Assembly (NCBI GenBank): GCA_017560085.1
Contig: JAFYPA010000052.1
Span: forward strand, 1-64,000
Direction: 5' to 3'
DNA: 64,000 bases
Source: Clostridia bacterium
Lineage (GTDB): Bacteria; Bacillota; Clostridia; Oscillospirales; CAG-382
Positions 18,902 to 29,947 of the stretch are shown here, in pieces (position 1 is the first letter of the stretch; each line of letters starts with the position of its first letter). Under the pieces are notes generated by a model. The model was not told the DNA's origin, ran no database searches, and saw nothing but the letters and a program-made list of their open reading frames with translations. Both the position numbers and the translations under genes were made by a program.

Positions 18902-20017
18902 TCAGAAATTCTTTTCCTGCATAATAGCCTTAATCTTTGCCGCAGGGCTCATAAGAAGGCTTACGGACTTGTTGATGTTCACAGCCTCAATGTAGTATGC
19001 GATGTACTTGAGGATGTTAACCTCTGTGAACCATTCGCGGCTCTTGAGGTCCTCGGGGAGATATGTGGAGTTTGTCACATAAATCTTGTCGAACATCTTG
19101 TTGTTATAGTATTCGTCGAACTTGTCAAGACCCTTGTTGAAGAGACCGAAGGTGAAGAAGCCGTAGATTCTTCTTGCGCCCTTAGCCTTGAGCATATCCA
19201 TAACGTGCATAAAGGATTCACCGGAAGCAACGATGTCGTCAACTACGATGATGTCCTTGCCGTTTACGTCGTCACCGAGGTATTCGTGTGCAACGATGGG
19301 GTTTCTGCCGTCTACAACAGTTGTATAGTCACGTCTCTTATAGAACATGGAGAGCGGTACGCCGAGTACGCTTGAGAAGTACATACCTCTTGTGAGCGCG
19401 CCCTCGTCGGGAGATACGATAACAAGCTTTGACTTGTCGATGTTTTCTTCCGTGTTGAGAAGCTTCTTGATCATCTGGTATGTAGGCATAAGGTTATCAA
19501 AGCCGTTGAGCGGAACTGCGTTTCTTACTCTGTCGTCGTGTGCGTCAAAGGTCATAATTGTGGAAACGCCCATATTCACGAGGTCTGCAAGGAATACTGC
19601 ACAGTCGAGTGACTCTCTTGCTGTCTTTCTGTGCTGACGGCTTTCGTAAAGCATAGGCATTACAAGTGTGATTCTTGCAGCCTTACCGCTGATTGCGGCG
19701 ATAACTCTCTTAACATCCTGATAGTGGTCGTCGGGGCTCATGGGAACCTTTCTTCCGTACATAACATATTCTGTTTCCTCGCTGTGATTGAAGCAATCGG
19801 CAACGATGAATACGTCCTTACCTCTTACAGATTCTCCGAGAACAACCTTACCTTCGCCCGAGCCGAAGCGGGAGAACACACTTTCAACAATGTAGTGGGG
19901 CTCTTCCTTTCTCCACTCACCAATGTAAGATGCAATCTTCTTGCACATGTTTTCTGTGCCCTTTGTACCTATAATGGCAAGCTCTCCAAAGGGTATTTCT
20001 TTTGACAAATCCGGCAT
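18902..20017 (-). CDS. prs: Ribose-phosphate pyrophosphokinase (long clostridial type)
   Basis: Makes PRPP from ribose 5-phosphate and ATP. The start is placed at the ATG giving MPDLSKEIPFG because GGAGG lies 8 bases before it (371 residues); an in-frame ATG 30 bases upstream would contain that Shine-Dalgarno sequence. Recognisable parts are ARITLVMPMLYESRQHR, FDAHDDRV and the PRPP loop DIIVVDDIVASGES. It is about 50 residues longer than the classical enzyme, with an extra N-terminal part and a long C-terminal tail. It has its own strong promoter. Confidence 0.9.
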   Translation of the reverse strand: MPDLSKEIPFGELAIIGTKGTENMCKKIASYIGEWRKEEPHYIVESVFSRFGSGEGKVVLGESVRGKDVFIVADCFNHSEETEYVMYGRKVPMSPDDHYQDVKRVIAAISGKAARITLVMPMLYESRQHRKTARESLDCAVFLADLVNMGVSTIMTFDAHDDRVRNAVPLNGFDNLMPTYQMIKKLLNTEENIDKSKLVIVSPDEGALTRGMYFSSVLGVPLSMFYKRRDYTTVVDGRNPIVAHEYLGDDVNGKDIIVVDDIVASGESFMHVMDMLKAKGARRIYGFFTFGLFNKGLDKFDEYYNNKMFDKIYVTNSTYLPEDLKSREWFTEVNILKYIAYYIEAVNINKSVSLLMSPAAKIKAIMQEKNF

Positions 20018-20061
20018 TTCAGTATCCTCCAAAATATATTTTTGCATTATATCCTTTATAG

Positions 20062-20424: not shown

Positions 20425-21282
20425 ATGTTAAGAAAATTATTGTCGGCATTTATTATCGGCTTTGCGTGTACGGTTCTCCTGGTTTCACAGTGGTCCGCAA
20501 GCGCCGAACAGGTAAAATTTGAAGGCTATGAGATTCCCGTAGATATTATGGTTAACGGAAGCTATCTTGAGGACGGCGGCAAGGGATTCCTTGACGACAA
20601 CGGAATCATATACGTTCCCGTAAGATTTGTAAGCGAGGCGCTTGGTGCATATGTGCGCTGGGACGGTATTCTTGAAACGGCGGTAGTTTCAAGACAGCTT
20701 CGCGAATACGTATTCGAGCCCGCAACACAGGGCTGCTACGTTGACAACGTATGGAGCTACACCTCTCAGAGAATTATAAACGGTGTTCTTTATGCGGATG
20801 CAAAATTCCTTTTGGCAAAATTCGGAGCATCATACGAATACGACAGCTTAAGACACGAGATAAGTCTCAGCTTGCCCGACTACACTGTGCCCACACAGTT
20901 CCTTGAAACATATTACACCGCGGAGGACCTTTACTGGCTCGCAAAGATTGTTACCTGCGAGGCGGGAAGCGTTACCTTCAATCAGCAGGTAATGGTAGCA
21001 AACGTCATTCTCAACAGACGCGCGAGCAGCTCCTTCCCCAACACAATTTACGAGGTTATATACGACAGACGCTTCGGCATTCAGTTCTCTCCCGCATACA
21101 GCGGAAGGCTACCAAAAGCAAATCCCAACGCAAAGACCTATCTTGCCTGCAAGGCGGCACTCAACGGACTGAATCTTGCTCCCGACTGTCTCTACTTCAT
21201 TTACGCATCCAACAAGAGCGGATGGATTGCAAGAACAAGACCTCTTTACGCAATTGTCGGAAATCAGGCGTACTACAAATAA
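20425..21282 (+). CDS. Secreted cell wall hydrolase, copper-amine-oxidase-like N-domain plus SleB domain
   Basis: 285 residues. A signal peptide (LLSAFIIGFACTVLLVSQ) is followed by a module of the copper amine oxidase N-terminal type, which binds wall polymers, seen as GIIYVPVRFVSEALG. The second half is a Hydrolase_2 (SleB/CwlJ) domain beginning YTAEDLYWLAKIVTCEAG, with MVANVILNR and IQFSPAYSG. Such enzymes cut peptidoglycan glycan strands, in spore germination or in vegetative cells. No germination gene (ypeB, gpr) is nearby, so a sporulation role is only possible. The ATG follows GGAGGAA. Confidence 0.88.
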   Translation: MLRKLLSAFIIGFACTVLLVSQWSASAEQVKFEGYEIPVDIMVNGSYLEDGGKGFLDDNGIIYVPVRFVSEALGAYVRWDGILETAVVSRQLREYVFEPATQGCYVDNVWSYTSQRIINGVLYADAKFLLAKFGASYEYDSLRHEISLSLPDYTVPTQFLETYYTAEDLYWLAKIVTCEAGSVTFNQQVMVANVILNRRASSSFPNTIYEVIYDRRFGIQFSPAYSGRLPKANPNAKTYLACKAALNGLNLAPDCLYFIYASNKSGWIARTRPLYAIVGNQAYYK

Positions 21283-21336: not shown

Positions 21337-23034
21337 TTATCCCCTTCTGAAAAGGAAGCTCTTGCCGAGTGTAAGCTCACACGGGAATGTGATTTCCTCT
21401 CCTGTGTAAACATCGGTAAAGGTGTGCTTGCCGTCAAAGGAGAAGTCGAATGCTCCGTCCTCGCCCGTGTGTGTGAACACATAGCTTTCGTTGGAGTATA
21501 CGACCGCCTTTTTGTTGCAGTACATATGGACACCGCTGTCCTCGCAGAATTTATGCAGGTCCTCTGCGGTAGTTTGGTTACTTGTTATAACAAAGAGCGG
21601 GATGCCCTTCTGCTTTGCTTTTTCCATAATCTCCTCTGAAAGAGTTGTCTTCACGGACTGAACCACAATTATTGCCTTATACTTATCCGCAACGTCGTCA
21701 AAGTCATCTGCAAGGTACATATCGTAGGGTGCGCCCATATGACCGAGGGCTTCTCTTATTTCAAACATAAGTCTGAAGTTGGGATGCTTGGTATCCGTAA
21801 TAAGCGGTACGCTGTTTTCGTCAAAGAACATTGCGACCTCGCAACGACTTTCAAGGCTCTTTCCGACGGATTCGCCGTATATGTCACGCATTCTGTGCAT
21901 AAGCTCCATATACCTTTCGTCTCTGTACCATCCGCCCCACATATCAAACCACCACATACCCGTGCCGTGGCAGAGTGCCTTTGCGAAGTGCATCTTCATT
22001 ATTTCAAGGGTTATTTCCCTTGCGGGGCCTCGCCATACGGGATTCTGGTATCTGGGAAGGTCGTTGGGCGGCTCGGAAAGATGCGTTCTTGTGTCGTTTT
22101 CCGCAAGGTAAAGCTTGCCTGCCTTTTTAAGGGTGTCTATGGGAAGCATATAGGGATGGTCGATACCGGGAATTCTTACCTTGTAGTAGGAGTTGGGAGA
22201 GCAGAGAAAGTCAACGTATTCACTTTCAAGCACCTTGCGAAGAGCGTTATGACCTCTGTGTCCCTCGGGTACTTCAAAGGAGTAGCCGTAGAATGCGCCG
22301 ACCGCAAGTCTTGAATCGGTTACCTCCTTTGTGATTTTTGAAAGCTCGATTATGCAATATGCAATACGCTCGGAGAGTGCCTTACAGTATTCGCTCTCCG
22401 TCCCGTTTTCTCTGCCGAATTTTTCAAGGCAGTATTCTCTGAATTTTTCGTCGGCACGGATGCCCTTGCTTCCTCGGAAATCCATGGGAAACCACTCCTC
22501 CGTGCTTCCTGCGGAAATCTGATAGCCTATGATATTGTCACGGTAGGGCGCTGTTTCCACATATTCGACGAACATTTTGAGAAGTCTTTCCGTTTCAAGA
22601 AGCCACGCATCCGACCAGAAGGAATATCTGTGATGCTCGGTGTAGCTAAACTCACAGCAATCGTCGGGGTGAGCCTCCTCCCAGTCGTAAGGAATAGAAA
22701 CATTCACACGGGGGAAAATCATAGCATCGGGACAGTGCTCGCGAATCTGTCCCACGAGGTAATCGAAGATTGTGTAATCGGGCTCGCCGCCGCTGTAAAT
22801 CTTATCGAAAATGCCCTTCTGAAAAGGTGGAAGCTGTGAGGATTCATTGATTGTCTGCTCGGTGAAGTATACGGGCACGGAATAGAGCTTGTAGCCGTTT
22901 TCCGCAAACTCCTTGTACATATTCTTTTCGGTAAAATAAGTGATGTACGCCATAGGGTTAATGGGCTTGTCATTGACAAACAGCATCGGCACACCACCGT
23001 GATTTTTTACGCAGGATGTTACCATATCATTCAC
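21337..23034 (-). CDS. Glycoside hydrolase, beta-galactosidase-like (clan GH-A type)
   Basis: About 565 residues with no signal peptide, so probably cytoplasmic. The N-terminal two thirds look like a TIM-barrel glycosidase: IIGYQISAGSTEEWF places a glutamate where GH42-like enzymes have the acid/base, and GKLYLAENDTRTH is a plausible nucleophile strand. The region DDFDDVADKYKAIIVVQS resembles the Rossmann-like middle domain of GH42 enzymes. The frame opens with GTG at 23034, overlapping murQ by 8 bases; an ATG at 23025 behind AGGTGA is equally good. It is the last gene of the kinase-murQ-hydrolase operon, so an amino-sugar glycoside substrate is inferred. Confidence 0.75.
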   Translation of the reverse strand: MNDMVTSCVKNHGGVPMLFVNDKPINPMAYITYFTEKNMYKEFAENGYKLYSVPVYFTEQTINESSQLPPFQKGIFDKIYSGGEPDYTIFDYLVGQIREHCPDAMIFPRVNVSIPYDWEEAHPDDCCEFSYTEHHRYSFWSDAWLLETERLLKMFVEYVETAPYRDNIIGYQISAGSTEEWFPMDFRGSKGIRADEKFREYCLEKFGRENGTESEYCKALSERIAYCIIELSKITKEVTDSRLAVGAFYGYSFEVPEGHRGHNALRKVLESEYVDFLCSPNSYYKVRIPGIDHPYMLPIDTLKKAGKLYLAENDTRTHLSEPPNDLPRYQNPVWRGPAREITLEIMKMHFAKALCHGTGMWWFDMWGGWYRDERYMELMHRMRDIYGESVGKSLESRCEVAMFFDENSVPLITDTKHPNFRLMFEIREALGHMGAPYDMYLADDFDDVADKYKAIIVVQSVKTTLSEEIMEKAKQKGIPLFVITSNQTTAEDLHKFCEDSGVHMYCNKKAVVYSNESYVFTHTGEDGAFDFSFDGKHTFTDVYTGEEITFPCELTLGKSFLFRRG

Positions 23035-23827
23035 CTAATGCCTTTCTTATATTCCATTCGTTACAGTCGAGCTTCTTTTCCGCTTCCTCCGCAGAGCAAT
23101 CTGCAAGGTCTGCGACTATGTTTATCATTCTCGCACGGAGCTTGATGTTTGTGGGTCGGAGGTTTATCATTACATTTTCGTAGATTTTGCCCGTCTTTAC
23201 CATTGCACAGGTTGTGAGCATATTAAGCACCATTTTATGTGCCGAGCCTGCCTTCATTCTTGTCGAGCCCATAATCGGCTCTGCGCCCGTGTCGGTTACG
23301 ATTGTGATGTCGCTTTCCTTTGATATGGGAGTATCGTAGTTGGAGGTAAGAGCCACGGTAACAGCGCCTCTTTCCTTTGCTTCGCGGAGTGCTCCCACAA
23401 CATAAGCCGCACCGCCCGCAACGGAAATTCCCACAAGGACATCGTTTTTGCCGAGGTTGTTTTCCGCAATATCCGCTCTGCCGTTTGCTTCCTTGTCCTC
23501 TGCGTTTTCCGATGCTTCAAATACACAATTTCTACCGCCTGCGATAATTCCCACAACCTGAGATTTATCCGTACCGAAGGTGGGAGGGCATTCCGCCGCG
23601 TCAAGCACGCCGAGTCTTCCGCTTGTACCCGCACCTATGAAAAAGAGTCTGCCTCCGTTTTCGAATGCCTCGGTTATTGCATCCACCGCTTTTGCGATGT
23701 CCTCGCTTGCTTCTTCAACGGCTTTTGCGGCGTTGTAGTTTTCCTTGGCTATGGCGGACACCATTTCTGCGGTTGTCATTTTGTCTATGTGAGTTGTGTT
23801 GGGGTTTCTCTGCTCTGTTTTTAACAT
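23027..23827 (-). CDS. murQ: N-acetylmuramic acid 6-phosphate etherase
   Basis: Splits the lactyl ether of MurNAc 6-phosphate to give GlcNAc 6-phosphate, the key step in reusing muropeptide sugar. The SIS-domain protein has FIGAGTSGRLGVLDAAECPP, the glutamate-bearing VFEASENAEDKEA, and GSTRMKAGSAHKMVLNML. It has 266 residues against about 300 for known MurQ. The core is complete, but the C-terminal helical lid keeps only one of the two helix-hairpin units, ending NEWNIRKALGE. The ATG follows AAGGAG, 15 bases after the HTH-kinase gene. Confidence 0.93.
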   Translation of the reverse strand: MLKTEQRNPNTTHIDKMTTAEMVSAIAKENYNAAKAVEEASEDIAKAVDAITEAFENGGRLFFIGAGTSGRLGVLDAAECPPTFGTDKSQVVGIIAGGRNCVFEASENAEDKEANGRADIAENNLGKNDVLVGISVAGGAAYVVGALREAKERGAVTVALTSNYDTPISKESDITIVTDTGAEPIMGSTRMKAGSAHKMVLNMLTTCAMVKTGKIYENVMINLRPTNIKLRARMINIVADLADCSAEEAEKKLDCNEWNIRKALGE

Positions 23828-23842
23828 TTTTATGCTCCTTTT

Positions 23843-25018
23843 TTACTGTTCCTTATTTACAGCGATGTTGTAGCCGTCGGTTAATTTATCGGTAAAGGCT
23901 TCGCTTGCAAGAGAACCGGAGAATGTTTCAAGGCACACTCTTGCCGCTCCTATTACCTGCGGAATATCAGTGTATATTATTTTAAGGTCGCTGTCGATTT
24001 TCGCCTGAATTCTGTCACCGAAAAGCTCCTTGTCCTTTGCTATACCGCCCGAGAGAATTATACCGTTCCGGCAATTGTATGTTTTTGCGGTGAAGTTTAT
24101 AAGCGTTGCGAGTCGGTCGGTGTTTCTTTCGATAATGGCAAGTGCAGTTTCGTCGCCTTCAAGTGCCGCACGGAAAACGCAGGAGGCGAAGGATGCGATA
24201 TAGTCCCTGCCCTTGGCGTACAGAATGTGAATGCTTTCCTTGGCGTTTGTGCCGAGGGTTTCCTCGACATATTTTGTCACAAGGCTTTCGCCCATAAGTC
24301 CGTCTACATTGGCGAGTGCGGCTCTTATTGCGTCACAGCCTATATCGAATCCGCTTCCCGCTCTGTCGAAAAGGTACCCCCAGCCGCCGCATTGGTGGAG
24401 TCCCGACTCGTTTTTGGCATACACGACAGAGCCCGTACCGCAAATTACGGCTATGCTGTCACCACAAAGCGCGGGGCAGGAGCCGAAGACGTTCATTATG
24501 TCGCTTGAGATTTCGAATTTTATTGCGGGGTAATTCTTGCGAAGAAGCCTTGTGACTTCCTTTCTGTTGCCTGCATTTCCGCATCCTGCAATTCCCGCAT
24601 AAAGTCCCGATATATTTGCGGTGTACTTTAGCATTTCGTCTATGCCGTTTCTGAGAACCTCATATGTTCCTCCCACGGTGACGGAGTTGGGATTGCTTGC
24701 GGGAAGCACGGCTCTTGCCCTTACCTCGCCCGATTCGGTGAACAGAAGGAATTCCGTTTTGGTGCCTCCGCCGTCAACGGCAATATAGCAGCTTTCGTTC
24801 CTTGTGCTTTCTCCCTCACCCACGAGGCTGTCAAGGCTTACGCCCAGCACCTCGGCAAGTCTGCAGAGGTTTTCTATATCGGGGGCACAGCTTCCCTTTT
24901 CCCATTTGGATATGTTCTGCGGACTGAGAAACAGCTTTTCCGCAAGCTCCTTCTGGGTAAGTCCGAGCCTTTTTCTGTGGTATTTTATGTTATATGCAAA
25001 TCTTTCGGATACAAACAA
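23843..25018 (-). CDS. Fusion of an XRE-type DNA-binding domain and a BadF/BcrA-type amino-sugar kinase
   Basis: 391 residues. Residues 12-65 form a helix-turn-helix of the XRE/Cro type (LTQKELAEKLFLSPQNISKW). From residue 77 an ASKHA kinase starts with the phosphate motif VDGGGTKTEF, followed by VICGTGSV and the adenosine-side GGWGYLFDRAGSG. This matches the GlcNAc/MurNAc kinase branch of BadF/BadG/BcrA/BcrD proteins. Next to murQ it should phosphorylate MurNAc or GlcNAc. The attached HTH suggests a kinase that also senses sugar and controls the locus, like ROK repressors but in a different kinase family. The start is TTG behind GGAGAG. Confidence 0.88.
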   Translation of the reverse strand: MFVSERFAYNIKYHRKRLGLTQKELAEKLFLSPQNISKWEKGSCAPDIENLCRLAEVLGVSLDSLVGEGESTRNESCYIAVDGGGTKTEFLLFTESGEVRARAVLPASNPNSVTVGGTYEVLRNGIDEMLKYTANISGLYAGIAGCGNAGNRKEVTRLLRKNYPAIKFEISSDIMNVFGSCPALCGDSIAVICGTGSVVYAKNESGLHQCGGWGYLFDRAGSGFDIGCDAIRAALANVDGLMGESLVTKYVEETLGTNAKESIHILYAKGRDYIASFASCVFRAALEGDETALAIIERNTDRLATLINFTAKTYNCRNGIILSGGIAKDKELFGDRIQAKIDSDLKIIYTDIPQVIGAARVCLETFSGSLASEAFTDKLTDGYNIAVNKEQ

Positions 25019-25055
25019 TGTTGCGCTCTCCTATCGGTTTCGTTATTTTTTATTT

Positions 25056-25084
25056 ATTGTAACACACATAGGTTGAGGTGTCAA
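25056..25084 (-). promoter_or_regulatory. Promoter of the HTH-kinase/murQ/hydrolase operon
   Basis: TTGACA, 17 bases, TACAAT on the minus strand. The repeated ATAGGTT elements lie in its spacer and over its -35. Confidence 0.75.
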
Positions 25085-25126
25085 TAGGTTTTTACTATAG
25101 CAGCACAAAAAATCAACCACAGGTTG
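25068..25126. promoter_or_regulatory. Candidate operators for the HTH-kinase protein
   Basis: ATAGGTTG at 25068-25075 and ATAGGTTT at 25084-25091 repeat at 16-base spacing across the minus-strand promoter. ACAGGTTG at 25119-25126 forms half of a 13-base palindrome, CAACC-ACA-GGTTG, at 25114-25126, between the two divergent promoters. The link to the HTH protein is inferred. Confidence 0.45.
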
Positions 25127-25148
25127 TTTGCAAGTTTCCGATAATGTA

Positions 25149-25178
25149 TTGACTTTTAGAGGGTATTTGTACTATAAT
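25149..25178 (+). promoter_or_regulatory. Promoter of the SGNH hydrolase pair
   Basis: TTGACT, 18 bases, TATAAT, about 35 bases ahead of the first hydrolase's ribosome binding site. Confidence 0.7.
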
Positions 25179-25217
25179 CTAAGAAAGAAAATTCTTGAAG
25201 CAAAAAGGAGAAGCAAT

Positions 25218-26003
25218 ATGTCAATCGAAAACGTAAATCCCCTCGAAAACCTCGTCAGTGACGGTGGCTTTGTAGGTATCTTCAGAACAATAGGATGCAT
25301 AGGCGACAGCCTTTCCTCCGGTGAATTCCAGTCCACCAAGGAGGACGGAAGCCAGGGCTTCCATGATATGTACGAATATTCCTGGGGTCAGTATATGGCA
25401 AGAGAAGCGGGCTGTACGGTATACAACTTTTCAAGAGGCGGTATGAGTGCAAAGTGGTTTAACGAAAGCTTTGAACAGCAGTGCGGAATCTGGACAGAGG
25501 AAAAGAAGTGTCAGGCGTATGTTATCGCTCTCGGCGTAAATGACGTAATGAATCAGAATCAGACAATCGGTGAGGTTGGCGACTGTGAAAAGGAAGGCTA
25601 TGCAGACAACCGTACCTATTCGGGCGAATATGAAATCATCATCAAGAAGATAAAGGATTTCCAGCCCAAGGCGAGAATCTTCCTTATGACAATCCCCGAC
25701 AACGGCGAATTCGGCGATCCCTCAAGACGCGAAAAGGGTGCGAAGGTTCAGAAGCTTCTCTCGGACTTCTGCGACAAGTACGAATTTACTTACCTTATCG
25801 ACCTTTACAAGTACGCTCCGAAGTATGATGCGGAATTCCGTGACAAGTATTTCCTTGCGGGTCATATGAATCCTATGGGATATATGATTCACGCGAAGTT
25901 CGTTACTACATACATCGACTATATTATCAGAAATAATATGGAGGACTTCAAGCAGGTTGCGTTTATCGGAACACAGTGGCACAGCGACAAGGCGAAGTGG
26001 TAA
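25218..26003 (+). CDS. SGNH/GDSL-type hydrolase (copy 1)
   Basis: 261 residues from the ATG at 25218, which follows AAAAAGGAG. The block I catalytic serine lies in RTIGCIGDSLSSGEF; block III has VIALGVNDVMNQN; the histidine is in AGHMNPMGYM. No signal peptide is present. These enzymes remove acyl groups, often acetyl, from sugars. The position divergent from an amino-sugar operon suggests an acyl-sugar substrate, which is an inference. It is clearly paralogous to the next gene, which starts 20 bases later. Confidence 0.87.
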   Translation: MSIENVNPLENLVSDGGFVGIFRTIGCIGDSLSSGEFQSTKEDGSQGFHDMYEYSWGQYMAREAGCTVYNFSRGGMSAKWFNESFEQQCGIWTEEKKCQAYVIALGVNDVMNQNQTIGEVGDCEKEGYADNRTYSGEYEIIIKKIKDFQPKARIFLMTIPDNGEFGDPSRREKGAKVQKLLSDFCDKYEFTYLIDLYKYAPKYDAEFRDKYFLAGHMNPMGYMIHAKFVTTYIDYIIRNNMEDFKQVAFIGTQWHSDKAKW

Positions 26004-26023
26004 TTTGAGAAAGAGAGAATTTT

Positions 26024-26800
26024 ATGTATAATATAGATTTTGAAAACGAGAAGCCGCTTGAAAATCTTGTGGCGGATGGTGGGCTTACGGGGATATTCCG
26101 TACTATAGGATGTATCGGCGACAGCCTTGCTTCAGGTGAGGTTGAGTCCACAAAAGAGGACGGCACTACGGGATATCACGATATGTACGAGTATTCCTGG
26201 GGTCAGTTTATGGCTCGCCGTGTGGGAAATAAGGTTTATAACTTTTCCAAGGGCGGTATGACTGCTGTTGCGTTCAATGATACCTTTGAAAAGCAGTGCG
26301 AAATCTGGACGGAGGAAAAGAAGTGTCAGGCGTACATCATTGCGCTTGGTGTCAACGACCTTTACGGCAGAAAGCAGAATGTCGGCAAAATCGGAGATAT
26401 GGACAGAGCCGACTACGACAACAAGGACAATGTGACCTTCGCGGGCGAATACGAAAAGCTCATCCGCAAGATAAAGGAATTCCAGCCCAAGGCGAGAATC
26501 TTCCTTATAACAATCCCCAAATACGACGAAACCGCAGAAAAGGCGGCGGCGCTTCTCTACGATTTTGCTGAAAACTATGATTTTACATATGTAATTGACC
26601 TTAAAAAGTATGCGCCCAAGTACGATGCGGAGTTTTACTCCAAGTACTTTGTCGGCGGACATATGAATCCTATGGGATATTTGCTTACCTCAAAGTTTAT
26701 TATGTCCTACATAGACTATATTGTAAGACATAATATGGAGGACTTTAAGCAAGTCCCGTTTATCGGAACTCCCTGGCACAGCGATCAGGCTAAATGGTGA
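26024..26800 (+). CDS. SGNH/GDSL-type hydrolase (copy 2)
   Basis: 258 residues, closely similar to copy 1 along its whole length. It has RTIGCIGDSLASGEV (serine), IIALGVNDLYGRK and GGHMNPMGYLL (histidine). Shared stretches such as KIKEFQPKARIFLITIP versus KIKDFQPKARIFLMTIP show a tandem duplication with moderate divergence. It is likely cotranscribed with copy 1. The substrates may differ, but no feature shows how. Confidence 0.87.
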   Translation: MYNIDFENEKPLENLVADGGLTGIFRTIGCIGDSLASGEVESTKEDGTTGYHDMYEYSWGQFMARRVGNKVYNFSKGGMTAVAFNDTFEKQCEIWTEEKKCQAYIIALGVNDLYGRKQNVGKIGDMDRADYDNKDNVTFAGEYEKLIRKIKEFQPKARIFLITIPKYDETAEKAAALLYDFAENYDFTYVIDLKKYAPKYDAEFYSKYFVGGHMNPMGYLLTSKFIMSYIDYIVRHNMEDFKQVPFIGTPWHSDQAKW

Positions 26801-26915: not shown

Positions 26916-27734
26916 TTATTTTGTTGTTTTACCTATAATTGTGAAGATTGCAAAAACAAAGGCGTTAGCGAGAACTATGCTTGCTCCCACGGGAGTTTCA
27001 AACAGAATTGAGAGCAATGTTCCGCCGATAAAGCACAGGACGGAAACCGTAACCGAGCTTATGATTACCGCCTTGTAGGAGCGGAAGATTCTCATTGAGG
27101 AAAGTGCGGGGAAAATTATCAGTCCCGAAATGAGGAGTGTTCCCATAATTCGCATTCCGATTACTACGGTAAGTGCTGTGAGGATTGCGATTATCATATT
27201 GTATACTTCCGTTTTCACGCCCGAAACCTTGGCGAAGCCCTCGTCGAAGGTTACGGCGAAGATTCTGTTATACAGCAGAACGAAAAGGACAATCACCGCC
27301 GTCAGCACGGGGACACACAGGTAAAGGTCGGATTTTGAGATTGCGACTATGCTTCCGAACATATAGTCGTTCACATTAGTGTTGACACCGCCCACAAGGG
27401 ATGCTGAGGCTATACCCACGGCAAGAGCTGTGGAGGACAGAAGTGCGATTGCGCTGTCACCGCCCATTTTGCTCTTTCGGCTTATATGCATCAGAAGAAA
27501 TGCACACAGCACCACCACGGGAATCGCAAAGGTAAGCGGTGCAAGACCCAGCACAAGTGCAATGGACATAGCTCCGAAGGCAACGTGTGAAAGTCCGTCA
27601 CCTATCATTGAAAATCTTTTAAGAACAAGCGTAACGCCAAGAAGAGATGTGGCAACCGCCGTGAGGATTCCGAGGAAAATGCCTCTCTGAACGACAGACG
27701 GAAGGCTTACCACAACAGAAATAAAATCACTCAT
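26916..27734 (-). CDS. znuB: Zinc/manganese ABC transporter permease
   Basis: 272 residues of the ABC-3 permease family with about eight membrane helices. Typical parts are LVLKRFSMIGDGLSHVAFGA and GMRIMGTLLISGLIIFPA. It forms the membrane channel for the ZnuC ATPase and the ZnuA binding protein. It overlaps znuC by 8 bases. Zinc rather than manganese is inferred from the His-rich ZnuA and the Fur-type regulator in the operon. Confidence 0.92.
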   Translation of the reverse strand: MSDFISVVVSLPSVVQRGIFLGILTAVATSLLGVTLVLKRFSMIGDGLSHVAFGAMSIALVLGLAPLTFAIPVVVLCAFLLMHISRKSKMGGDSAIALLSSTALAVGIASASLVGGVNTNVNDYMFGSIVAISKSDLYLCVPVLTAVIVLFVLLYNRIFAVTFDEGFAKVSGVKTEVYNMIIAILTALTVVIGMRIMGTLLISGLIIFPALSSMRIFRSYKAVIISSVTVSVLCFIGGTLLSILFETPVGASIVLANAFVFAIFTIIGKTTK

Positions 27735-28524
27735 TGCCTTCCCTCCTTCCGATAAGAAGCCCTGAGAGCTCGGTTTTCAGATAGTCCTCCTTGCTTCCGA
27801 AGAACAGCATTTCCGTATCCATATGCAGAACCTTTGTGGCGTATTCAAGTGCGCTGTCAACCTGATGGGAAACCATAATTACCGTCATTCCCTTTTCCGT
27901 GCGAAGGCTGTGGAGCGTGCTGTGGAGCTTTCTGTTTGCAATCGGATCAAGACCATTTGACGGCTCGTCAAGAACTATAAGTCCGCTTGTGTGGCAGAAG
28001 GTTTCATCGTGACAGGCACAGCATTTGTGAGTGCAGACGTCGCAGTCCGTTGCGGAAACAAGAGCTCTTGCGAGAAGCACTCTCTGCTTTTCACCGCCGG
28101 AAAGGTTACTGAAGTGCTTATGCGATATTTTTTCAAGCCCGAGATAGGAAATTATATCCGCGGCTTTTTTTCTGTCCCTTGCGGAGTAGAAGGAGAAAAT
28201 TCCCTTTTTACCCACGAAGCCCGAAAGAACGACCTCCGTAACGGTTGCGGGGAAATCCTGCGCTATGGTGCTTTGCTGTGGGAGGTATCCTATCTTTTTT
28301 GCCATTCTTCCGTCGGGAAAGGAAATTTTACCGTCATAGGGACGGACAAGACCGAGGATTCCCTTGAGAAGCGTACTCTTTCCCGAGCCGTTCCTTCCGA
28401 CAATCAGCAGAAAATCGCCGTTTTCCACCTTGAAGCTTGCGTTTCTGACAGCATCCTTTGCACTCGTATAACGGACACAGAGGTTTTCTGCAGAAAGTAT
28501 TGTTTTGTTTGCATTATTTTCCAT
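27727..28524 (-). CDS. znuC: Zinc ABC transporter ATPase with Cys/His-rich insert
   Basis: 265 residues. Walker A is GRNGSGKS at 43-50, the Q-loop is LPQQ at 81-84, the signature LSGGE is at 141-145, and Walker B LIVLDEP is at 182-188. Between the signature helix and Walker B, where most ATPases have about six residues, there are about 26. They include six cysteines and three histidines (C161, C164, H166, C168, C169, C171, H172, C177, H178). The reading frame is clean, so this is a true insert and could bind zinc near the catalytic site. The rest is a normal ZnuC. Confidence 0.93.
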   Translation of the reverse strand: MENNANKTILSAENLCVRYTSAKDAVRNASFKVENGDFLLIVGRNGSGKSTLLKGILGLVRPYDGKISFPDGRMAKKIGYLPQQSTIAQDFPATVTEVVLSGFVGKKGIFSFYSARDRKKAADIISYLGLEKISHKHFSNLSGGEKQRVLLARALVSATDCDVCTHKCCACHDETFCHTSGLIVLDEPSNGLDPIANRKLHSTLHSLRTEKGMTVIMVSHQVDSALEYATKVLHMDTEMLFFGSKEDYLKTELSGLLIGRREGNE

Positions 28525-28583
28525 TTATTTTATTCTCCGATTGTTTTCTTTATGCTTGCTTTGGGACTTTACTCCCATCGAAT

Positions 28584-29516
28584 TTATTTGTTTTCCAGTG
28601 CAAGCTTCAGATTTGCTATATTCTTATTCATAAGCGAGATGTAATCCTCACCCGCCAAAGCCTCGTCCCTTGAAAGATTGTGGCAGGAATGAAGCACCAG
28701 AAGGGTTGCGCCCGTTTCGTCCGCTATGCTTTTTGCGACCTTGCTCTCACTTATTTCCTCGGTGAAGATGTACTTTGCGCCGTCATTTTTTATCTTTTCC
28801 GTAAGCTCGGATATGGTTTTTATGCTCGGCTCGGACTCCTCGGAGCAGCCCTTGTATGCGGATTCATAGCCGAAGCCGTAGTCGGAAAACATATAAAGAA
28901 ATGCAAATCTTCCGCCGAAATAAACCGTTTTTTCACCGTGATTTTCCGACAGCTCCACAAGCTTTTTGTCAAGGTCTGCCAGGTCTTTTTTGAGGCTTTC
29001 AGCGTTTCCCATGTAGTATTCCCTGCCCTCGGGGTCGATTTCGCAAAGTGCCTCGAGGATAGCATCCGCCATAAGAATTGCGTTTTTCGGGCTTGTCCAG
29101 ATGTGGGGGTCATAGTCGTGTGTGTGGTCGGATTCCTCACCGTGATGTGTGTGGTCGGAGGTGCCGTCAAGGAGGGTAATTCCGGTTGAAAGGTCGAGTA
29201 CTCTTGTATTCTCTCCCTCGGCGTTTTCAAGAAGCGTTGCCGCCCACATTTCCATTTGCTTGCCCGTGTAGACAAACATATCTGCATTGGAAACTGCGGT
29301 CATATCCTTGATTGATGGGTCATAGGTATGGCTTTCACTACCGAAGGGAAGGAGCATTGTCACCTCTGCCCTATTCCCTGCGATTCTGCTTGTAAAGTCG
29401 TACTGGGGGAAAATTGTGGTTACTATTTTAAGCTTTCCGCTGTCCCGCTGTGCTGTGCAGGCTGTCAGGGTAAGCATTAATATTGCTGATATGAGTAGGA
29501 TGCAGATTCTTTTCAT
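28584..29516 (-). CDS. znuA: Zinc ABC transporter substrate-binding lipoprotein
   Basis: 310 residues from the ATG at 29516, which follows AAGGGAG. The N-terminus is a lipoprotein signal ending LTACTAQ. The cluster A-I fold is marked by VVTTIFPQYDFTSRIAG, the metal-site DPHIWTSP and FTEEISES. A flexible His/Asp-rich loop (DHTHHGEESDHTHD) precedes the metal site, as in zinc-specific members. It delivers Zn2+ to ZnuB/ZnuC. It starts 20 bases after the regulator gene. Confidence 0.93.
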   Translation of the reverse strand: MKRICILLISAILMLTLTACTAQRDSGKLKIVTTIFPQYDFTSRIAGNRAEVTMLLPFGSESHTYDPSIKDMTAVSNADMFVYTGKQMEMWAATLLENAEGENTRVLDLSTGITLLDGTSDHTHHGEESDHTHDYDPHIWTSPKNAILMADAILEALCEIDPEGREYYMGNAESLKKDLADLDKKLVELSENHGEKTVYFGGRFAFLYMFSDYGFGYESAYKGCSEESEPSIKTISELTEKIKNDGAKYIFTEEISESKVAKSIADETGATLLVLHSCHNLSRDEALAGEDYISLMNKNIANLKLALENK

Positions 29517-29536
29517 TGTGTTTACTCCCTTCGGTC

Positions 29537-29947
29537 TTACTGTGCATTTGACTTTTCGGCACAGCTGTGGCAGACACCGTAAAACACCGTTTTGGATGGT
29601 ATAACGGTAAATCCGTGATCGCCCTTGACATGATTGCAGAGCTGTGAAAGAAAATCGCAATCTGCGCAGAAAAGCGAGCCGCACTCGGTACATTTGAGAT
29701 GGAAATGCTCACGGCAATGCTTTTCGGTGTAAGTATATCTCGCTCTGTCCGTGACATATTTCTGCACGGTCCCCTCGGAATAAAGCTTTTCGAGGTATCT
29801 GTAGACGGTGGTGGCACCGACTCTTTCTCCGCTTGACCTCAGCATTTCGCAGATTTCGTCGGAGGAAAGGTGGGTATCCGTATTGTTTTTGAGAAGCTCA
29901 AGGATTATATCGCGCTGTCTGGTTTTGTAGCCGCCCTTTGTTCGCAT
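29537..29947 (-). CDS. Fur-family regulator, probably zinc-responsive (Zur)
   Basis: 136 residues. The N-terminal winged helix contains LSSDEICEMLRSSGERVGATTVYRYLEKL. The C-terminal part has HCREHFHLKCTECGSLFCADC and a final CHSC, giving the two CxxC pairs that hold structural zinc. It is the first gene of the znu operon, so it most likely represses the operon when zinc is plentiful. PerR or Fur roles are less likely from context. The ATG follows GGAGAAGG. Confidence 0.9.
   Translation of the reverse strand: MRTKGGYKTRQRDIILELLKNNTDTHLSSDEICEMLRSSGERVGATTVYRYLEKLYSEGTVQKYVTDRARYTYTEKHCREHFHLKCTECGSLFCADCDFLSQLCNHVKGDHGFTVIPSKTVFYGVCHSCAEKSNAQ

Follow-up and report, generated by a model that had tools for sequence, protein, structure and literature searches.

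Kinase domains in regulatory proteins

Repressors of the ROK family (NagC, Mlc, XylR, Lmo0178) carry a winged helix-turn-helix (HTH) and a ROK domain, and MurR, of the RpiR family, controls a murQ operon. The protein analysed here, encoded in a 64,000-nucleotide stretch of clostridial DNA (the window), resembles the ROK repressors, which control sugar genes through an HTH and an actin-fold sugar-kinase domain, but its HTH is of the XRE type and its kinase of the BadF/BcrA type. MurR has a SIS sensor domain and stands apart from any kinase, whereas the fusion holds kinase and HTH in one protein.

On the enzymatic side, the closest described systems are the MurK kinases of C. acetobutylicum (8zo3) and T. 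forsythia (8ow9), with which the fusion shares the fold, the catalytic Asp, the phosphate motifs, small residues near the lactyl pocket and the murQ pathway; the solved MurK enzymes, unlike the fusion, have no DNA-binding domain (PMC10465942). NadR of E. coli and Salmonella fuses an HTH to an active metabolic kinase, and this single protein both represses and phosphorylates (PMC12421817). Its domain order is comparable to that of the fusion, but it belongs to another kinase family, has an additional NMN adenylyltransferase domain and acts in NAD salvage, and the trifunctional form is restricted to Enterobacterales. BzdR/BoxR, like the fusion, combine an XRE HTH, a linker and a shikimate-kinase-like domain that descends from a small-molecule kinase. 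BzdR is no longer active as a kinase and responds to benzoyl-CoA (PMC3602430), whereas the fusion retains intact kinase residues. A synthetic chimera of an XRE domain and an active shikimate kinase (BzdR Q1) repressed in vivo and was not inducible, apparently by consuming its inducer (PMC3602430).

Because kinase family, HTH type or an intact active site differs, the fusion is a member of none of the NadR, ROK or BzdR types; all four follow a common logic with different parts. A literature search on the protein type and its closest analogues returned no description of the fusion, which is not proof of absence elsewhere.

The fusion gene, its locus and its relatives

The genes of the locus and the ribosome-binding site of the fusion gene are as follows.

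23843–25018, minus strand: XRE HTH–kinase fusion gene, 391 aa, TTG start (Pfam domains, fold match, AlphaFold model)
25026–25032, minus strand: ribosome-binding site AGGAGAG of the fusion gene (sequence)
23027–23827, minus strand: murQ, MurNAc-6-phosphate etherase (TIGR00274, 316.4 bits, cut-off 302)
21337–23034, minus strand: GH42-like glycoside hydrolase of clan GH-A, 565 aa (fold matches to GH42 enzymes)
25218–26003, plus strand: SGNH hydrolase 1, ATG start at 25218 (corrected from TTG at 25128)
26024–26800, plus strand: SGNH hydrolase 2 (domain search)

An earlier note, made from the sequence alone, had described a TTG-started protein joining an XRE HTH to a BadF/BcrA-type kinase with intact DGGGTKT, and domain searches bore this out. 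Both parts lie in a single open frame, with the HTH at residues 11–64 (Pfam HTH_3, E 1.3e-15, 57.6 bits, cut-off 23), a linker at residues 69–72 and a MurK-type BadF/BcrA kinase at residues 77–390 (Pfam BcrAD_BadFG at residues 81–358, E 4.3e-27, 95.8 bits, cut-off 31.5); the DGGGTKT motif occupies residues 82–88. The AlphaFold model is confident (pLDDT 91.4) and shows a hinge at the linker residues. The TTG start is credible because AGGAGAG stands 7 nt ahead of it and an ATG occupies the aligned position in a sister species.

Downstream of the fusion and in the same direction lie murQ and then the GH42-like gene, while the two SGNH genes face it, so the operon and the opposing pair proposed earlier both stood, the start of the first SGNH gene being moved. 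The genome has a single murQ, the copy at this locus, and several nagA genes, which gives the kinase product an onward route. Two invariant glutamates of the GH42-like protein, E180 and E312, are by inference its candidate catalytic pair, and no signal peptide was evident by eye. In the sister species (genome G032, locus L036) the same gene order is kept at 71% identity, with a GH20-type gene (L036:716-2224) inserted between the two SGNH genes; this gene is missing from the window, and no close copy was found elsewhere in the window's genome. Its presence in the sister locus strengthens the amino-sugar reading.

Several further genes border the locus. A SleB-like cell-wall hydrolase with a copper-amine-oxidase-N-type domain is encoded at 20425–21282 on the opposite strand, and a long ribose-phosphate pyrophosphokinase-like protein (381 aa) at 18902–20047; both are kept beside the locus in the sister. 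Judged by eye, 26916–29947 is probably an ABC uptake operon of the zinc type, headed by a gene for a Fur-family regulator.

Our domain-pair search with tabulation of neighbours, as the earlier note had suggested, yielded after removal of duplicates a final set of 50 fusions and 59 stand-alone kinases from Clostridia. Within the window's GTDB family the fusion is confined to the window's genus, the other genera having stand-alone kinases or none. Full-length fusions occur in 18 of 394 genomes of the order and further ones came from a class draw (n = 391 genomes), while a phylum-wide draw of 398 genomes added none at the threshold used. A GTDB contig scan found fusions in named MAGs assigned to Clostridia and Oscillospiraceae, most of them from the guts of ruminants or other animals; judged by their titles, all named fusions come from uncultured genomes.

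Linkage to murQ is nearly universal: it lies within two genes on the same strand in 48/50 fusions, usually directly downstream of the fusion, the exceptions being L089 and L186 (broken gene near contig end). That relatives might all lack the fusion, as an artefact would imply, did not hold, and the shared gene order in the sister together with fusion–murQ pairs in dozens of other species argues against an assembly artefact. With neighbours called by a simple ORF caller, 13 of the 39 fused loci examined have a gene for the GH42-like protein in third place, versus none of 53 stand-alone loci, and 9 of the 39 have one for a DUF4838 protein. DUF4838 (L074:9154-10899) and DUF6259 (L086:4915-7008) proteins recur beside the fusion–murQ pair and are likely glycosidases of amino-sugar glycans; an assignment of DUF4838 as GH163 found no confirmation in the literature search. 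A suspected RpiR regulator cluster beside stand-alone kinases turned out to be an ABC permease.

Structural comparison revealed matches of the fusion model to Sulfolobus hexokinase, C. acetobutylicum MurK and human NagK, with the C. acetobutylicum enzyme (8zo3) among the closest solved structures (TM 0.86 on target). The fusion scored 87.3 bits against the NCBIfam equivalog NagK_SO3507, below its 370-bit cut-off. ROK is a weak second match (E 5e-9 versus 4e-27 for BcrAD_BadFG) and the ROK cysteine motif CxCGxxGCxE is absent from the translation, which rules out a ROK repressor. D82, K87, T88, N109, D173, G194, T195 and G214 are invariant in 50/50 fusions, and the window protein has D82, G84, G85, K87, T88, the catalytic D173 and GTG at 194–196. 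A small residue (S/T) precedes the catalytic Asp in 45/50 fusions, as does T94 in T. forsythia MurK, whereas C. acetobutylicum MurK has N there (PMC10465942); as a sign of MurNAc/GlcNAc phosphorylation this is suggestive only. By comparison with other kinases (PMC10465942), a glycine-rich GGWG segment occupies the position at which they carry a bulky residue that keeps the lactyl group out, making MurNAc and/or GlcNAc, with no decision between the two, the likely substrate.

A predicted operator at a fixed distance from the promoter

Comparison of the window with the sister locus first revealed that the region of the divergent promoters holds a conserved palindrome; the elements predicted there are as follows.

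25113–25127, no strand assigned, read on the minus strand: O1, main predicted operator, ACAACCTGTGGTTGA (palindrome conserved in sister; comparative motif)
25062–25076, minus strand: O2, second, weaker predicted operator, TCAACCTATGTGTGT, with TCAACCTATGTGTG identical in sister (comparison)
25079–25084, minus strand: -35 box TTGACA of the fusion promoter, 17-bp spacer (sequence)
25056–25061, minus strand: -10 box TACAAT of the fusion promoter (sequence)
25149–25178, plus strand: SGNH operon promoter TTGACT-N18-TATAAT (sequence; both boxes largely conserved in sister)

The centre of O1 lies 36 bp upstream of the fusion -35 box and 29 bp upstream of the corresponding box of the SGNH operon; O2 sits inside the fusion -35/-10 spacer, 51 bp from O1. 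Both fall in the stretch 25050–25140 previously suggested for binding assays.

Across 35 fusion promoters compared with dinucleotide shuffles, three palindromes of one common geometry were enriched: CTAC-N5-GTAG (7 seen, 0.04 expected), CAAC-N5-GTTG (6 seen, 0.13 expected) and TCAA-N7-TTGA (8 seen, 0.4 expected). The strict 15-bp palindrome precedes the fusion or the operon head in 29/50 fusions versus 0/59 stand-alone kinases. Since 39 of the 50 had served to define the motif, only the 11 fusions found after the pattern was fixed form an independent test, and 8 of these carry it. It is missing in about 40% of fusions, several of which have diverged palindromes in the same place. About twelve stand-alone kinases beside murQ, nested in fusion clades, lack the strict operator.

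A sequence-agnostic scan for palindromy in promoters aligned on the -35 box gave one sharp peak 37 bp upstream of it, with at least five of six arm positions paired in 17/47 fusions versus 0/33 stand-alone kinases; diverged palindromes such as TCTCCCGAAAGGAGA were thereby exposed in loci failing the strict motif. Among 30 promoters with a recognised O1, 28 place its centre 35–40 bp from the -35 box (mode 37). O2-type sites between -35 and -10, 51–53 bp downstream of O1, occur in 8 loci (about 0.8 expected) that represent about five lineages and include the window and its sister. Candidates for a second site at +32/33 relative to O1 were discarded, most of them being simply the TTG that belongs to the -35 box.

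The recognition helix covaries with the site: Gln (Q34 in the window) accompanies CAA..TTG sites in 20/20 cases and Lys accompanies CTA..TAG sites in 9/9. This pairing follows one split in the tree and thus counts as one event rather than 29, so a Fisher test overstated it; it is compatible with a recognition helix that reads the site directly. The comparative evidence for a palindromic operator that the XRE domain would bind close to the protein's own promoter is strong, and the protein is strongly implied to be both DNA binder and kinase.

The predicted regulon appears small. WCAACN5GTTGW occurs once in the 3.1-Mb genome, at O1 (reversed control: 2), which suggests a local regulator of its own operon and possibly of the divergent SGNH operon. 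The looser CAACCN3GGTTG has three further genomic places: one lies inside a gene, one precedes by about 210 bp an FAD-oxidase gene that lacks an evident promoter, and one stands ahead of another XRE gene. The earlier remark that the locus has no transporter proved accurate: no sugar transporter was seen adjoining it, and with the strict operator confined to O1 and no looser place at a transporter, a co-regulated one was rejected genome-wide as well.

Outside the window (L169:7667-9333, contig C53), an XRE protein with a Q-type recognition helix is apparently fused to an ADP-ribosylglycohydrolase-like domain, and an identical 13-mer, CAACCACAGGTTG, lies about 75 bp before its start. This second enzyme–XRE fusion may share or cross-read the operator.

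Mode of control and implications

We propose that the fusion is probably a bifunctional MurNAc/GlcNAc kinase and local autoregulator, a 'trigger enzyme' whose repression is relieved by its substrate. A dimer would bind O1 through its XRE domains at a fixed helical position, with the centre of the site about 37 bp ahead of the -35 box; in the window's lineage it would also bind the weaker O2, 51 bp away in the core promoter. At rest it would most likely repress its own near-consensus promoter (kinase–murQ–GH) and probably the divergent SGNH operon too. MurNAc (or GlcNAc) and ATP in the kinase cleft would close the domains and weaken DNA binding; the kinase would form MurNAc-6P, MurQ would convert it to GlcNAc-6P, and a NagA encoded elsewhere would carry on. 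Repression is favoured because the promoters are strong (several match the consensus at 12/12 positions) and O2 overlaps the core promoter. Phage phi29 p4, an upstream-bound repressor at a strong promoter, was rejected as a parallel, as its sites overlap -35 and the geometry is too different.

The main rival, which we regard as rather unlikely, is that the same bifunctional protein activates from O1, which lies about 73 bp ahead of the start site: sugar-bound, the protein would contact RNA polymerase (alpha C-terminal domain) and switch the operon on. The fixed phase of O1 near -73, a classic activator position, the constant O1-to--35 distance despite differing upstream genes and the absence of O2 from most promoters all suit activation, but near-consensus promoters should need no activator, and in window and sister O2 overlaps the core promoter. 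The earlier note's idea of one protein that senses, phosphorylates and derepresses therefore stands in part: a DNA-binding kinase with an intact site, a tie to murQ and a predicted operator agree with it, while derepression is not singled out, the position of O1 fitting activation too.

It is quite improbable that the HTH is functional and the kinase domain only a sensor with little or no catalysis. BzdR is the precedent, its authors judging loss of activity essential (PMC3602430), but the fusions keep the catalytic Asp and the main phosphate-binding residues without exception, like stand-alone enzymes, and no other kinase that could supply MurQ's substrate lies nearby, nor was a second homologous kinase found in the window's genome. 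Still more improbable is a reading in which the HTH is a passive remnant and the palindromes serve as terminators for the gene upstream or as some other shared element: A and T runs flank some palindromes of the Lys-helix group (L076, L092), but the distance to -35 is fixed with unrelated upstream genes, stand-alone kinase loci have no such palindromes, the site shifts to the operon head where a glycosidase or murQ gene comes first (L065, L085, L086, L175), and O1 in the window lies between divergent promoters with no gene end there.

Within the bifunctional reading, retention of active sites in natural fusions means that they must sense product or nucleotide, use turnover as the signal, or need MurQ to drain the product. 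As a tentative extension, which we hold possible and somewhat doubtful, kinase turnover might set DNA occupancy, so that MurNAc flux rather than concentration is sensed, acting from about 73 bp upstream through contact with RNA polymerase or O1–O2 bridging. If true, flux sensing would be a natural answer to the non-inducibility of the synthetic XRE–kinase chimera in vivo.

Collectively, these features make the fusion a candidate regulator of MurNAc salvage in gut Clostridia, at the locus that holds the genome's only murQ; the operator predicted for it, the fixed geometry of the promoters and the pairing of helix and operator are now on hand. It would also be a natural counter-example to the view, argued for BzdR, that kinases recruited as regulators must lose their activity.
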